Shown here: positions 49,869-61,970 of the stretch, one piece after another
Numbering within the stretch: the stretch's first letter is position 1
How the letters are laid out: the number at the start of each line of letters is the position of its first letter
Source of the DNA: Nitrosopumilus sp.
Lineage (GTDB): Archaea > Thermoproteota > Nitrososphaeria > Nitrososphaerales > Nitrosopumilaceae
Assembly (NCBI RefSeq): GCF_025698945.1
Contig: NZ_JAILWM010000001.1
Coordinates: 1 to 64,000 of the forward strand
DNA length: 64,000 nt
Direction: 5' to 3'
Position numbers and translations under genes: made by a program
Notes under the pieces: model-generated
Seen by the model: only the letters and a program-made list of their open reading frames with translations
The model's database searches: none
Told to the model about the DNA's origin: nothing

Positions 49869-51362
49869 TTGAAAGTAAGTTTATTCTTAATTCCAGTTAT
49901 TGCAGCATTATTCTTTGGATCTTTGATCATCCCTTCAAGTTATGCACAGTATGAAGGCGGTGGAGTTAACAAAGAAGGAACATGGTATGCTGGTGAAGGT
50001 CTTCAACAAGGAGATTATTTTGAATATTCTATGTGTCATGTAGATTACAAAGAATGTGCCAAGTTTGAATTGGATATGTGGATTAAAGGTGACAAACAAG
50101 TTGGCTCTGAATCAAAGTGGTTAGCTGAAGTTGTAGTTTATGATGGAAATAAAATAATTAAAGGTGAAATGGAATTAGGAAAAATTGCTCCAGAACCAAC
50201 TGGGGGTAGTTCTGAACTTGGAATTTACCGAGGTGCATTCAAATCATCCGTTGCTTGGCTGTCTGCTTTTGCAACAGCTGATGGAAGCTCAGGTGGCAAA
50301 GGACCAAAAGAATTCTCAGCTCAATCATGGGGTAAAATTGGAAACATTGGTGGCCAACAAGTAGCTCCAAGAGGACTAGAGACAATCACAGTTCCAGCTG
50401 GAACTTATGATACTGTCCAAGTAGGGTGGAAGACCGGTGGTGCTACAAGTAAAGTTTGGATTGTAGATGATTTTCCTTTTCCAATAAAAGCAAAAACATA
50501 CACCCATGTTTCTGAAGGAATCCCTCCAACAGAATATGAGTTTGAACTATTAAAATACCAAAAAAATATACAGTCTAGTCCATTTGCTGGAATAATTTCT
50601 ACTCAAACTGACATTAAGGCTGGCTGTGAAACAAACTTTGAAAAAGATGTTAGCATAAAGAAACCCACTAAAAACTTCAAGTATCAAATTCATGTATTTT
50701 ATGGACCTGAAGATCCTGTTGAAGGTTGTGGGATGCAATGGTTAATCAAATTTATCAGTATTTACGATGATACAGAATTTTTGAACCAAGTTCAATTTGA
50801 TTTCCTTGTAGTTGATAACAATCTGACTCCGCTAAGATCGATTGCACAGGATGAAGGTAGACAGTTTCTTTATTCTCCATCTGGTCAATACATTCTTGAT
50901 ATGGTTGTAAAAGAAAAACCTGGAACTGCTAATTATGTTATCTGGGTTTATGGACTAGCACCTGAAGGAATAGTTCCTTCTACTGCAACCGATTATCTAC
51001 AAATCCCTGTTTTGATATATGGTGATAAGACTAGTACATCTCAAAATATCCCTACATGGATTAAAAATAATGCAGGATGGTGGGCAGATGGCTCCATTGA
51101 TGATAACTCCTTTGTTCAAGGAATTCAATTCTTGATTAAAGAGGGAATTGTGAAGATTCCTCCTACCTCTCAAGGTTCATCTTCAACTAATCAAATCCCT
51201 GCATGGATTAAGAATACAGCAGGATGGTGGGCAGATGGTATTGTCTCTGATAATGAGTTCGTTCAAGGACTTCAATTCTTAATCAAAGAAGGAATCATGA
51301 AGATAGAACAATCTTCTGAAAAGAAAAAATCTAGTGGTTCTGAACCTGAATCCTGGTATTAA
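49869..51362 (+). CDS. exported protein with two WIKNxAxWW C-terminal modules
   Basis: 497 residues from a TTG start: signal peptide at about 1-26 (ending SSYAQ), a long beta-rich domain (about 30-390), then two near-identical modules with IPTWIKNNAGWWADG at about 397 and IPAWIKNTAGWWADG at about 443, each ending FLIKEGI. A Ser/Lys-rich tail follows. The same module ends PstS at 60714. Cell-surface protein, function unknown. Confidence 0.85.
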   Translation: MKVSLFLIPVIAALFFGSLIIPSSYAQYEGGGVNKEGTWYAGEGLQQGDYFEYSMCHVDYKECAKFELDMWIKGDKQVGSESKWLAEVVVYDGNKIIKGEMELGKIAPEPTGGSSELGIYRGAFKSSVAWLSAFATADGSSGGKGPKEFSAQSWGKIGNIGGQQVAPRGLETITVPAGTYDTVQVGWKTGGATSKVWIVDDFPFPIKAKTYTHVSEGIPPTEYEFELLKYQKNIQSSPFAGIISTQTDIKAGCETNFEKDVSIKKPTKNFKYQIHVFYGPEDPVEGCGMQWLIKFISIYDDTEFLNQVQFDFLVVDNNLTPLRSIAQDEGRQFLYSPSGQYILDMVVKEKPGTANYVIWVYGLAPEGIVPSTATDYLQIPVLIYGDKTSTSQNIPTWIKNNAGWWADGSIDDNSFVQGIQFLIKEGIVKIPPTSQGSSSTNQIPAWIKNTAGWWADGIVSDNEFVQGLQFLIKEGIMKIEQSSEKKKSSGSEPESWY

Positions 51363-52983: not shown

Positions 52984-55206
52984 CTATCTAACAATCTCTT
53001 CTTCTAAATAACCAATAAACTTTCCAGTATTCTCTAGTTTTATTGAATTGATTCCTTTCAAATTATCCATTTGATTCATCTTTAGGTAATCAGTAGATGC
53101 AGTATACAACACATCATCAATATAGAATGTTCTTGCATTACTCATTCCATAGTATCTGTTATCTTCTGCAGAGTGTGTGATTGTTCCTTTGAGACTAAAT
53201 CCCTCTGAACTATTCAAATCATATACATAGAATCCATTCCAGCGATTGTACTCTGGTGCAATCATCTTTGAACCTGAAACATTCTTCAAACTCTTTGCAT
53301 CAGAACTAATAGGGATTGATAGGGTTCCTGTTTTTGCATCAAAGAAGAATGCTTTGTGGTTGTATAGTGCTTCAGACTGTGTGGAACTATCACCAATGAC
53401 TACCTCATCGGCAACCTTGGGGTTTTTGACATCTTTTACATTAAACAAGGCAATCTTGATGCCTAACTGTTGAACTCTGCCTTCGCCAATCTCTTTTGTG
53501 TCTCTTCCTACTCCAATGATGTACTCATCATCATATGGGTGTAGGTAGTTTGAAAATCCTGGAATTTTAAGTTCTCCTAGAATCTTTGGCTTGTCAGTTG
53601 ATAAATCAATTACAAAGAATGGATCTATTTGCTGGAATGTTACCAAGTAAAGTCTGTCTCCAATGAATCTAGCTGAGAATATACTCTCATCTGGGGCAAC
53701 ATCTTCCAAGGCTCCCACTACATTTAATTCCTCATCTAAGACATAGACTGAATTTGCTCTGACCATTCCTTGGTACTGTGTATAGTATTCCGTTGTTGTA
53801 GCAACTCTAAATCTGTCTCCTTCTTGATCCATTGAGAATTGGTTTAGTAATCTTCCTGGAACAGAACCTTTTGCAACATATTCTAGTTTGTCTTTGTTAA
53901 TTGCAATCTTGTGAATAATGGTTTTCGAGTTTTCTTCTTGAATCTTAGTGTCATATTCAATCAGTGCTTCACGTATTTTCTCAAACAACTTCTCTTTTTC
54001 TGCTTTATCCATTGTATTGTATGACTCTTGCATTACTTCTGAAATCTTTATCCATTGCTGTGATAAATTCAAAGAATCATCTTTTTGAATATCTGTGATT
54101 TTATTCTGGATGTTTTTTGGAAGTAGTGGAACTATGACATCAAAGAATCTGTCCTGTGAAGATTTTTCATAAAATCCAAATGGCATGTTCTGCTGGTATG
54201 TCAAGTAAAAATTATCTTCGGAGACATAAACTGAACCTGAGTATCCCATTAGGAATGTCTCAGAACTAATAGTATCTCCAAAAATATCAATTGCTGTCAA
54301 TGTGTTGAAATTTGAAAACTGCTCTATATTATCAAAGTAAAATGCATCTGGAGTCATTATACGAATAGAATCCTCCATAATTATTGGAAGTCTAGGATAC
54401 TGGTAATTGATATTGCTGTTAGTAACAAAGTATGCATAATCCCCTATCATTCGGGCATCAGTAAAGTATCCATCAATTGAATAGTCTTTGAGAATGGTTG
54501 GATTTTCTTTGTCTGACACATCTACAATTAGGGCATGTGTGACTGGACTGTAGGAGCGTTGTGGCACAAAGTCAAATTGCGGAATAATTTCCTCATCACT
54601 TTGTCCGTTATAGAAAATTACTAGTCTATCACCATTTAGGAACATGTTTTCAATGTGCTGTGATTCAATATCTAGAGCAATTTTAAGAATTAATCTTGCT
54701 GATTCTGCAGGATATGCATCAATAATTGATAATGTGTTTCTTGATACAATGTAAACATATTTTGCATCATTTTTTAGATAATCCGGCTCATCTACATTTT
54801 CAACTTGAACATTTGTTGTTGAATACTCTGTTCCTTCTACTGCTTTTTCTACAGCACCAGATGGGAGCGGTGATGGTGCTCCTGCTGATTCAGCAACTTC
54901 ATTTCTAGTCATTACCATGTCGCCATCCATCATCATGGTAGGTCTGAAACTTATTTGATCAAAGTATTGACCTCCAAATAATGCAGCAGCATCAAGAACA
55001 CTCTTTAGTTCTTTCTCAGAAGATATTTTTTTAATTTCATTATTTCCATCAAAAAATTCCGATATTGTTTTATCGACATAGATGATTTCTGGTTTTGGAG
55101 TTTCTGTAACTTGCACTTGTTGATCAAAACCGATTGCAAACATTACTCCGGCAGTAACTATTACCGAAACGACTACTGCAATTGGAATCATTATTTTTGA
55201 ATTCAT
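52984..55206 (-). CDS. exported/membrane-anchored beta-propeller protein (Beta_propel family)
   Basis: 740 residues. N-terminal signal anchor (about 6-26), a linker, then a large domain with repeated blade-like stretches (TEYSTTNVQVENVDEPDYLKND, VVDVSDKENPTILKDYSIDG, LYLVTFQQIDPFFVIDLSTDKP, IALFNVKDVKNPKVADEVV). The NVQVENVDEPD start and YVYDLNSS end are characteristic of the archaeal/bacterial secreted C-terminal beta-propeller family. Divergently transcribed from a membrane-bound HTH regulator; the two are likely a functional pair. Its promoter region contains a CTAGAC half-site of the regulator's inverted repeat. Confidence 0.88.
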   Translation of the reverse strand: MNSKIMIPIAVVVSVIVTAGVMFAIGFDQQVQVTETPKPEIIYVDKTISEFFDGNNEIKKISSEKELKSVLDAAALFGGQYFDQISFRPTMMMDGDMVMTRNEVAESAGAPSPLPSGAVEKAVEGTEYSTTNVQVENVDEPDYLKNDAKYVYIVSRNTLSIIDAYPAESARLILKIALDIESQHIENMFLNGDRLVIFYNGQSDEEIIPQFDFVPQRSYSPVTHALIVDVSDKENPTILKDYSIDGYFTDARMIGDYAYFVTNSNINYQYPRLPIIMEDSIRIMTPDAFYFDNIEQFSNFNTLTAIDIFGDTISSETFLMGYSGSVYVSEDNFYLTYQQNMPFGFYEKSSQDRFFDVIVPLLPKNIQNKITDIQKDDSLNLSQQWIKISEVMQESYNTMDKAEKEKLFEKIREALIEYDTKIQEENSKTIIHKIAINKDKLEYVAKGSVPGRLLNQFSMDQEGDRFRVATTTEYYTQYQGMVRANSVYVLDEELNVVGALEDVAPDESIFSARFIGDRLYLVTFQQIDPFFVIDLSTDKPKILGELKIPGFSNYLHPYDDEYIIGVGRDTKEIGEGRVQQLGIKIALFNVKDVKNPKVADEVVIGDSSTQSEALYNHKAFFFDAKTGTLSIPISSDAKSLKNVSGSKMIAPEYNRWNGFYVYDLNSSEGFSLKGTITHSAEDNRYYGMSNARTFYIDDVLYTASTDYLKMNQMDNLKGINSIKLENTGKFIGYLEEEIVR

Positions 55207-55224
55207 TTTTTTCTCCTCACTTTT

Positions 55225-55230
55225 CTAGAC
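55225..55230. promoter_or_regulatory. CTAGAC half-site near the beta-propeller start
   Basis: CTAGAC occurs about 20 bases upstream of the beta-propeller ATG (55206, minus strand) and matches the arm of the inverted repeat at 55336-55358. A six-base match alone is weak; its value is the matching context. Confidence 0.35.
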
Positions 55231-55335
55231 TCTTTTTGCTGATCTGGAATTTAGCGATTACTACTGTTTGCTAGTTGTAGATAAAAGGTTTAGTGAAACT
55301 CAAATTTTACCAATCATTTACATATACCTCCACTT

Positions 55336-55358
55336 ACTAGACAACTCAAATGTCTAGT
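55336..55358. promoter_or_regulatory. inverted repeat over the start codon of the membrane HTH regulator
   Basis: Perfect 8-bp arms ACTAGACA (55336-55343) and TGTCTAGT (55351-55358) separated by 7 bases. The ATG of the regulator lies at 55350-55352, inside the repeat. A dimeric regulator bound here would block its own leaderless gene; an autoregulatory operator is the likely role. Confidence 0.6.
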
Positions 55359-56138
55359 GAAAATCCTGATGATGAACTAACTGAAAAAATCAAAATTCTT
55401 GCTACTGATGATGAAAAAATAAAGTCTTTTGGCGAACTTCTAACAAACGATTCTAGCCGTGAAATCCTTCAATTACTCTTCAATGAAGAATTATCGGCAA
55501 ATCAAATTTCTCAAAAGACTGACATCTCATTACAGTTGGTAAAGTACCATTTGCAAAAACTTCAGGACTTGGGAATTGTAAAAATTGTAAAGGTAGAAAA
55601 AAATTCAAAATCTCAAGATATGAAAATTTATTCTGCAACAAAATTCAGTATTGTTATTGTTCCTCCTAAATTCTCAGAGAAGACAAAGGAGAGTAAATTA
55701 CTTGTAAGATCATTTAGACATATTTACAGAGTTGCAGGCCTTGGTATTGCCACCGGACTCTCAGGATTATTCTCCCTATCACTTGTAAATCAAGACAAGC
55801 AAATTGTTGTAGATGATCTACCTAGAGGAATCCCCAGCGCTGATGAATCTGCAGATTCTACAATGTCTAAATCCCTTGATGCAGGAACAACAGAATCCAT
55901 TGCAGCTTCTCCTAAGATGTCAACTGAATCCGAATCTCAGATGGAATTGAGAACTGCAATTGAGTCTCAAGACGGAAATCAGAATTTAGAAATTGTTCAT
56001 GGCCTTGCAGAATCTGATGGTGGTGCAATGTTTGGCTCTGATTTGTTATTGCCATTTGTAGTGATTACTATCATTTTGGCTGGAATCACTATTTTTTATG
56101 CAGTAAAACTATTCAAAAAATCTAAATTAAAAAACTAG
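55350..56138 (+). CDS. membrane-bound HTH (ArsR/winged-helix) regulator
   Basis: 262 residues. Winged-helix DNA-binding domain at about 28-98 (SSREILQLLFNEELSANQISQKTDISLQLVKYHL), then hydrophobic segment at about 127-147, a Ser/Glu-rich extracytoplasmic region of about 80 residues, and a second hydrophobic segment at about 231-253 with a basic cytoplasmic end. One-component membrane sensor: external signal, cytoplasmic DNA binding. Overlaps the convergent nitroreductase gene by four bases. Probable controller of the divergent beta-propeller gene. Confidence 0.87.
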   Translation: MSSENPDDELTEKIKILATDDEKIKSFGELLTNDSSREILQLLFNEELSANQISQKTDISLQLVKYHLQKLQDLGIVKIVKVEKNSKSQDMKIYSATKFSIVIVPPKFSEKTKESKLLVRSFRHIYRVAGLGIATGLSGLFSLSLVNQDKQIVVDDLPRGIPSADESADSTMSKSLDAGTTESIAASPKMSTESESQMELRTAIESQDGNQNLEIVHGLAESDGGAMFGSDLLLPFVVITIILAGITIFYAVKLFKKSKLKN

Positions 56139-60713: not shown

Positions 60714-61970
60714 ATGAGAGCAAAGATAACATCAATACTGATGATCGCAACATTGGTTGCAATCATGTCACCATTGAGTGCAAATGCTGATTCAATGCCT
60801 GATGCACCTGATCCAAATTTAGAATTTAATCTAACAGGAGCTGGTGCAACATTTCCATTTCCTCTAATTGATTTGTGGAGAGTTGAATACAAGAATGTGT
60901 ACAACAACGTAAATCTAAACTACCAATCTATTGGAAGTGGTGGTGGAATAAAACAACACATTGAAAAAACTGTAAATTTTGCAGCATCAGATGCCCCTAT
61001 GAAGGAGTCTGAAAGAGAATTGGCTCCTGGAACTCTGCATATTCCAGAAGCAATTGGAGGTGTAGTGTTAGTATATAATATCCCTGAAGTTCCAAATAAA
61101 GGTCTCAAACTAACTGCTGAAGTTGTTTCAAAAATATTCTTGGGAGAAATTACAAGATGGAATGATCTTGCAATCACTGCAGCAAATCCTGGACTAAATC
61201 TACCTGATAAAGAAATTGTTTCTGCACATAGATCAGACGGATCTGGAACCACCTTCATATTCACTGAATACCTAACAACTGTTAGTCCGACTTGGGATGA
61301 GAAAATAGGTAAAGGAAAATCTGTACCGTGGCCAAGTGGTCTTGCAGCTGCTGGAAATGAAGGCGTTGCAGGAATTGTAAAATCAACACCATACTCAATT
61401 GGTTACGTTGAGCTTGCATATGCATTTCAAACTGGAATGAGTTATGCTAGTATTCAAAATGCTGACAAAACTGCATTTATCGAGCCCACATTAGACAGCA
61501 TTTCAGCTGCATCTAGTGGAGTGGCAGATAGTTTACCTGCATCTGAGAAGAGCTGGGTAAATGTATCCCTAGTTAATGCACCAGGTAAGGATTCATACCC
61601 AATTGCAAGTTTCACATATTTGCTTGTGTATGATGATCTAAAACAAGTCACTAAAAACAAGGCGCAAGCAAAGGCAATTATTCATTTAATTCACTGGATG
61701 ATAACTGATGGTCAGAAATACTCCTCAAGTTTGCTTTATGTTCCATTGGCTGATAAAGTAGTAGAAGTAGGTAAGCAAGGATTGTCCAAAGTGACTTATG
61801 GTGGCGAAAAACTTTGGGATTACAAAACATCTGCAATGCCTGCAGGTGATTTGGGAATTCCAAAATGGATTAGAGACAATGCAAAATGGTGGTCAGAAGG
61901 ATTGATTACAGATGAAGACTACATCAATGGACTACAATATCTAATTAAAGAAGGTATTCTCAAAGTCTAA
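60714..61970 (+). CDS. pstS: phosphate-binding protein PstS with a C-terminal WIRDNAKWW module
   Basis: Captures phosphate for the PstCAB transporter. 418 residues: signal peptide (about 1-26), phosphate-binding domain with GAGATFPFPLIDLW, SDAPMKESE, and HRSDGSGTTFIFTEYL, then a C-terminal extension IPKWIRDNAKWWSEG to the end. The extension is the same module found in the 49869 protein and is atypical of bacterial PstS. Motif TCTATATAGT and a TATA-like box lie upstream; a phoU gene follows three genes on. Confidence 0.94.
   Translation: MRAKITSILMIATLVAIMSPLSANADSMPDAPDPNLEFNLTGAGATFPFPLIDLWRVEYKNVYNNVNLNYQSIGSGGGIKQHIEKTVNFAASDAPMKESERELAPGTLHIPEAIGGVVLVYNIPEVPNKGLKLTAEVVSKIFLGEITRWNDLAITAANPGLNLPDKEIVSAHRSDGSGTTFIFTEYLTTVSPTWDEKIGKGKSVPWPSGLAAAGNEGVAGIVKSTPYSIGYVELAYAFQTGMSYASIQNADKTAFIEPTLDSISAASSGVADSLPASEKSWVNVSLVNAPGKDSYPIASFTYLLVYDDLKQVTKNKAQAKAIIHLIHWMITDGQKYSSSLLYVPLADKVVEVGKQGLSKVTYGGEKLWDYKTSAMPAGDLGIPKWIRDNAKWWSEGLITDEDYINGLQYLIKEGILKV

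Follow-up and report, generated by a model that had tools for sequence, protein, structure and literature searches.

An exported beta-propeller protein and a membrane-anchored winged-helix protein as a putative split regulatory module of Nitrosopumilus

Transmembrane transcription regulators (TTRs) of the CadC/ToxR class carry a DNA-binding domain and a membrane segment in one protein and act from the membrane. The same is predicted here for a regulator encoded in the window, i.e. the whole stretch of 64,000 nucleotides of Nitrosopumilus DNA that was analyzed: it combines a predicted DNA-binding domain with at least one transmembrane (TM) segment, seen as two hydrophobic helices. It differs from the TTRs by an ArsR-like winged-helix domain (wHTH), an external stretch placed between two TM segments, a separate exported partner, and a dyad shared by two divergent genes. 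The main text of the TTR survey contains no mention of a propeller, of HTH_20 or of the ArsR domain (PMC10269533). In archaea, ArnR and ArnR1 of Sulfolobus acidocaldarius are membrane-bound one-component regulators with an N-terminal HTH and two TM segments; in ArnR, HAMP and sensory domains precede the two C-terminal TM segments, the ArnR boxes read TCGAC-N5-GTCGA, the target is the archaellum, and no propeller partner is reported (PMC6396743). The window regulator resembles both proteins in its archaeal origin, its N-terminal HTH, its two TM segments and the inverted repeats upstream of the promoter, and is set apart from the published ArnR layout because its variable stretch lies between the TM segments. 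With the ArsR/SmtB family (HTH_5, HTH_20) it has the wHTH fold in common, and it differs by its membrane anchor; it contains no cysteine and scores 27 bits against the NCBIfam HTH_metalloreg cut-off of 55 bits, which places it outside the ArsR/SmtB metalloregulators.

Hybrid two-component systems of Bacteroides use periplasmic propeller sensors, a phosphorelay, a histidine kinase and an AraC-type output. As in the module proposed below, an external beta-propeller sensor is coupled to transcription across one membrane, whereas the window module has a propeller of a different family, a split divergent pair of genes and no phosphorelay. The exported propellers of PF09826/COG4880, of which the window protein is a full-length member, are tied here to membrane regulators and are fused to a wHTH in five contigs. 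In the literature searched we found no function or partner for PF09826/COG4880, no pairing of it with a membrane regulator, and no description of an outside-to-DNA signalling module made of a membrane wHTH and a PF09826 propeller. To our knowledge, little is understood of how ammonia-oxidising and many uncultured archaea sense their environment.

We propose, with a probability of about two in three, that the two genes constitute a split transmembrane one-component regulatory module, in which the propeller outside signals via a membrane regulator that would bind the shared dyad (Table 1). The computations directly show a conserved dyad at a constant position, which is also present at paralogous membrane-regulator loci, a recurrent pairing of the genes, and single-protein fusions.

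Table 1. Coordinates of the features of the regulator-propeller locus in the window.
Feature	Position	Strand	Basis or remark
Membrane-anchored winged-helix regulator, 262 aa (wHTH - TM1 - ~80 aa outside - TM2)	55350..56138	+	
ArsR-like winged-helix domain, residues 12-104	55383..55661	+	Pfam HTH_20/HTH_5 above cut-off; AF2 pLDDT ~80-93 over most
TM1, residues ~125-147	55722..55790	+	Hydropathy; AF2 helix 113-146, low confidence beyond 128
Extracytoplasmic S/T/E-rich stretch, residues ~148-228	55791..56033	+	Poorly conserved; predicted disordered, pLDDT < 50
TM2, residues ~229-251	56034..56102	+	Hydropathy; model helix 233-258, low confidence
TATA-like box TTTACATAT of regulator	55317..55325	+	25 nt 5' of ATG; kept in nearly all congeners; putative function, from archaeal promoter geometry
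Dyad TTTAGTGAAA-CTCAAA-TTTTACCAAT	55289..55314	.	Proposed operator common to both divergent genes; conservation, genome scan, constant position
TATA-like box CTTTTAT facing propeller gene	55281..55287	-	Other side of dyad; putative function
Site A TTTAGCGATTACTA	55250..55263	-	Conserved also at propeller loci without regulator
Shine-Dalgarno-like GTGAGGAG of propeller gene	55213..55220	-	Sequence
PF09826 beta-propeller protein, 740 aa	52984..55206	-	Divergent from regulator
N-terminal membrane anchor of propeller, residues ~6-26	55129..55191	-	Sequence and hydropathy; putative topology; no obvious cleavage site or lipobox
PF09826 domain, residues 128-715	53062..54825	-	
Inverted repeat ACTAGACA/TGTCTAGT of the preliminary description	55336..55358	.	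Real sequence, chance-level, unconserved
CTAGAC half-site of the preliminary description	55225..55230	.	Unconserved

A preliminary description of the locus had given the regulator a winged helix, two membrane segments and about 80 residues between them, and this topology was borne out by Pfam, hydropathy and AF2, the TM segments being called from hydropathy and low-confidence models. The regulator scored 32.4 bits against HTH_20 (cut-off 27) and 30.7 bits against HTH_5 (cut-off 22); its nearest solved relatives are PH1932 (1uly) and CzrA-like proteins. Mean column identity was 0.91 in the wHTH and 0.93 in the juxtamembrane segment, and 0.46 in the external stretch, which is the least conserved region of the regulator apart from the C-terminal tail. 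The suggestion that this external domain senses found no support, given the low conservation of the stretch and its predicted disorder. For the same reasons, and because in the fusions described below the propeller stands where the outside domain would be, the propeller is the likelier sensor.

The neighbouring gene had been read as coding for a large exported beta-propeller, in agreement with its N-terminal membrane segment and with its match to PF09826 (Beta_propel; E=3.9e-150, 501 bits versus a cut-off of 22.4, model positions 1-494 of 495). A PDB sequence search with the propeller gave no relative, and Foldseek returned generic multi-blade propellers alone, with low TM-scores. PF09826 propellers were present in 95 of 200 sampled genomes of the phylum. 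Site A probably serves the propeller gene as a core promoter independent of the regulator: at propeller loci devoid of the regulator, it mostly lies ~27 nt 5' of the ATG, the distance expected for a core promoter.

Alignment of the intergenic region of 27 congeners with both genes delimited a conserved core from ~55250 to 55325, which comprises site A (TTTAGYGATTACTA), the TATA-like ATAAAAG facing the propeller gene, the 26-bp dyad TTTAGTGAAACTCAAATTTTACCAAT and TTTACATAT, the dyad being flanked by two TATA-like boxes. In this alignment the dyad reads TTTAGTGAAATTnnAATTTYACCAAA, and every regulator-bearing congener listed matches TTTRGTRAAA-N6-TTTYACYAAA with 0-2 mismatches. Positions 4 and 7 of the half-site alternate between A and G, as expected of equivalent half-sites. 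Where the regulator was cleanly lost and the propeller kept (four congeners), the dyad is gone (best match with 6-7 mismatches) and site A is retained; the CTTTTAT box, conserved in 27 of the 27 aligned regulator-bearing congeners, is likewise missing from these four. A point against the operator reading is that the dyad persists, with one mismatch, at three loci whose regulator was recently broken or survives as a remnant, so that it decays slowly or has another role. The promoter geometry makes it likely that the regulator transcript is leaderless. Together with the genome scan and the constant position described below, the pattern of conservation and loss strongly supports the dyad as the putative operator of the regulator, which would bind it. 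Remnants or frameshifted copies of the regulator were seen at L050, L051, L054, L027 and L044, all from congeners keeping the propeller; they suggest repeated recent loss of the regulator, and some could be sequencing errors.

A pattern derived from the window regulator and its group-1 orthologs only was searched in 460 gene upstream regions from 463 kb of the source genome. Only five of these regions, at three membrane-regulator loci, matched the dyad with at most three mismatches: two belong to the propeller and the regulator of the window, two to paralogous membrane regulators, and one to the exported SIMPL-cupredoxin protein that partners one of these paralogs. At the same threshold the genome-wide matches (18) did not outnumber those of a reversed-pattern control (19), so the evidence lies in the position of the matches and not in their number. 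Two of the 18 stand immediately 5' of the genes for the regulator's two close paralogs (C2:117.9 kb and C1:231.8 kb). A match at C2:68860 (one mismatch, 40 nt 5' of an exported 278-aa protein) was set aside as a further operator, orthologs being lacking in 13 of the 14 relatives searched, with a weak partial match in the other; two matches within coding frames (C3:150306 and C3:161098) were treated as chance.

With gene starts aligned and corrected by eye, four paralog groups have the dyad beginning at -60, -61 or -62 relative to the start of the regulator. The exported partner is the propeller in group 1, a small exported membrane protein in group 2, SIMPL in group 3 and SIMPL-cupredoxin in group 4; the latter group also includes a second, diverged regulator in the genome G013, divergent from a second PF09826 propeller and provided with the dyad. 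The intergenic regions of groups 2 and 3 measure 91-93 bp; the dyad ends 30-31 nt 5' of the partner start (far edge at -56/-57) and has TATA-like boxes on both sides, a nearly symmetric layout. The partner leader is ~50 nt longer in groups 1 and 4. The regulator/SIMPL pair recurs in several further genera of this family, where the dyad mostly starts at -61/-62. A dyad search at distant paralogs (L208, L209, L211-L214, L216 and L217) gave no good match; the operator is thus not general to every family member.

Two observations concern the paralogous pairs themselves. The SIMPL protein divergent from a dyad-bearing paralogous membrane regulator at L196:1613-3025 (G000 C1, near 232 kb) is exported and carries a plastocyanin-like copper domain, and this pair is possibly copper or redox related. 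In group 2 (L202-L207), a motif of 30 residues around NPxxGSGTP is common to the external part of the regulator and to its exported partner (E 2e-5, single comparison); the motif is followed by a TM segment in nearly all copies and hints at contact or common origin.

The pairing of regulator and propeller was then followed beyond the window. Among congeners, the group-1 regulator is always divergent from the propeller where the neighbour is readable, and the good congeneric genomes contain it in 19 of 31 cases with the propeller and in 0 of 7 without (counts uncorrected for relatedness). Many propellers, some in congeners, have no adjacent regulator, which counts against the module. Fusions were surveyed among the best 80 loci: five archaeal contigs (L132, L134, L142, L169 and L170) encode a wHTH, one TM segment and PF09826 in a single ORF, both Pfam HTH_20 and Beta_propel scoring above their cut-offs. 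The N-termini of these fusions were matched by a profile trained only on the genus of the window (E 4.7e-11 to 4.6e-4), and the AF2 model of L169 (mean pLDDT 84.7) shows a confident wHTH at residues 5-98, a helix of lower confidence at 108-125 and the propeller from ~190 to 740. The five fusions may trace to one fusion event.

Furthermore, a wHTH-TM-80 aa-TM protein adjoins the propeller in archaea of other phyla, Woesearchaeota (L163) and Nanoarchaeota (L155). Of the 76 PF09826 genomes that lie beyond the family of the window, at least 23 place the propeller next to a member of another family of membrane wHTH proteins (~150 aa with a TM hairpin; Bathyarchaeia and relatives), encoded on the same strand or divergently; in a few named loci this gene lies downstream. 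A Thermoplasmata protein (L154:1911-3386), encoded directly upstream of a PF09826 propeller, has an N-terminal TM segment, a second one, and two C-terminal winged helices; the stretch between its TM segments is weakly like the squalene-hopene cyclase/TED toroid fold. It represents another putative membrane regulator architecture, with reversed topology. The fusions, L163 and L155, the ~150-aa family and L154 show PF09826 recurring together with membrane DNA-binding proteins of varied architecture; the regulator-propeller link is real, and wider than the preliminary description had proposed. The window pair shows the arrangement of the proposed split wHTH/propeller module, in which the gene for a membrane wHTH protein neighbours a PF09826 gene or is fused to it.

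In Bathyarchaeia, small TM-linker-TM proteins (~90-140 aa) were also noticed next to the propeller, with a membrane wHTH gene close by (L064, L066, L091, L092, L093, L109, L111, L123, L126 and L127). They look like the membrane portion of the window regulator made as a chain of its own, a profile comparison hinting only weakly at homology (E 0.09 to 1.6, with a profile already including L155 and L163), and several sit between the wHTH gene and the propeller.

The operator had at first been placed elsewhere, on an inverted repeat enclosing the regulator's start codon and a CTAGAC copy near the propeller gene. Both exist: the repeat has perfect 8-bp arms, ACTAGACA (55336-55343) and TGTCTAGT (55351-55358), with a 7-nt spacer, and CTAGAC lies ~20 nt 5' of the propeller ATG. 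The repeat does span the start codon, the ATG (55350-55352) overlapping the right arm by two bases (TG). Perfect arms around a start codon are what would commend these elements as an operator, but their frequency is at chance level, with 52 perfect 8-bp inverted repeats (spacer of at most 20 nt) in the window versus 44-68 in Markov shuffles, 13 of 460 genes having such a repeat within 30 nt of their start, and 21 copies of CTAGAC versus 13.2 +/- 3.8 expected. L002, the closest relative with 87-90% protein identity, reads aactaaacaactcaaATGtccaatgag and tttcctgactc at the repeat and half-site, both arms and the half-site being altered; repeat and half-site are missing from 29 of the 29 related loci checked (L002 and 28 other propeller loci), and no relative retaining both genes has the repeat, the very outcome that the preliminary description had named as refuting its site. 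Shuffle-level frequency and non-conservation make the repeat a chance feature and rule it out as an operator, a reading to which we leave next to no probability. The dyad itself might be taken for two divergent core promoters whose BRE elements mirror each other by chance, with no operator. A TATA-like box does adjoin each arm on its outer side, and the half-site with one mismatch is mildly commoner in the -60 and -50 gene bins (14 versus 5.4 expected). The full half-site TTTYACYAAA is, however, no general promoter element (4 exact matches in 460 upstream regions); both arms together occur at membrane-regulator loci alone, where four diverged groups agree in the 6-nt centre and in the position; and the propeller retains the promoter-like site A where the dyad is gone. 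Since the half-site is not general, an explanation by BRE elements alone was rejected, and we judge it very improbable.

A more serious alternative makes the propeller an output or effector only, the regulator itself sensing the state of the membrane or a cytoplasmic ligand, or sensing through its own external stretch, autoregulating via the dyad and controlling the propeller gene. Paralogous regulators with the same dyad face differing, unrelated exported proteins (SIMPL, SIMPL-cupredoxin and the small membrane protein), which would allow the exported protein to be no more than a regulated output; the persistence of the propeller without the regulator in several congeners and the strong conservation of the juxtamembrane segment point the same way. 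Such a role is hard to reconcile with the fusion of wHTH, TM segment and propeller in one polypeptide, and the external stretch of the regulator is variable and predicted to be disordered. We consider this alternative unlikely.

In the split module, the propeller protein would be anchored by its N-terminal helix with the propeller outside, and the regulator by its two membrane helices with the ArsR-like winged helix inside. Dimers of the regulator would bind the dyad between the TATA-like boxes of both genes and control both promoters, by repression or activation, which would provide autoregulation and control of the partner. A cue from outside would lead the propeller to change the state of the regulator, probably via contact with the membrane or external part of the latter, so that the signal would flow inwards. 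The earlier idea of a signal-transduction pair thus stands as far as the coupling is concerned (divergence, co-loss, dyad, fusions, the second pair in G013 and the other membrane wHTH proteins), and was wrong as to the site, the dyad at 55289-55314 replacing the one proposed. The fusions and the conserved putative operator lead to a concrete, testable role for PF09826, that of the external portion of a membrane transcription regulator, and the dyad offers a candidate DNA target for an archaeal membrane regulator family that can be tested in vitro without host genetics. On a broader and more tentative view, to which we give somewhat less than even odds, an archaeal principle may be at work: an exported protein (PF09826 propeller, SIMPL, SIMPL-cupredoxin or small membrane protein) would serve as the sensory subunit of a membrane-anchored ArsR-like regulator, with back-to-back genes and a symmetric dyad between two TATA boxes, the propeller occurring in single-chain, two-chain and possibly three-chain forms across archaeal phyla.

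Outside the archaea, the PF09826 propeller gene of several Chloroflexota (L094, L095, L096, L099 and L101) is followed by a serpin gene, with Pfam Serpin E-values of ~1e-115 to 1e-121 for L094 and L101; for L095, L096 and L099 the serpin was recognized by its sequence. In L101 the propeller is preceded by a single-TM protein without any Pfam match. A link of the Chloroflexota propeller to extracellular proteolysis is possible. Finally, the window encodes two exported proteins (49869-51362 and 60714-61970) that end in the same type of repeat, IPxWIKNxAGWWADGxIxDxxFVQGLQFLIKEGIxKI, one of them being a PstS-like phosphate-binding protein.
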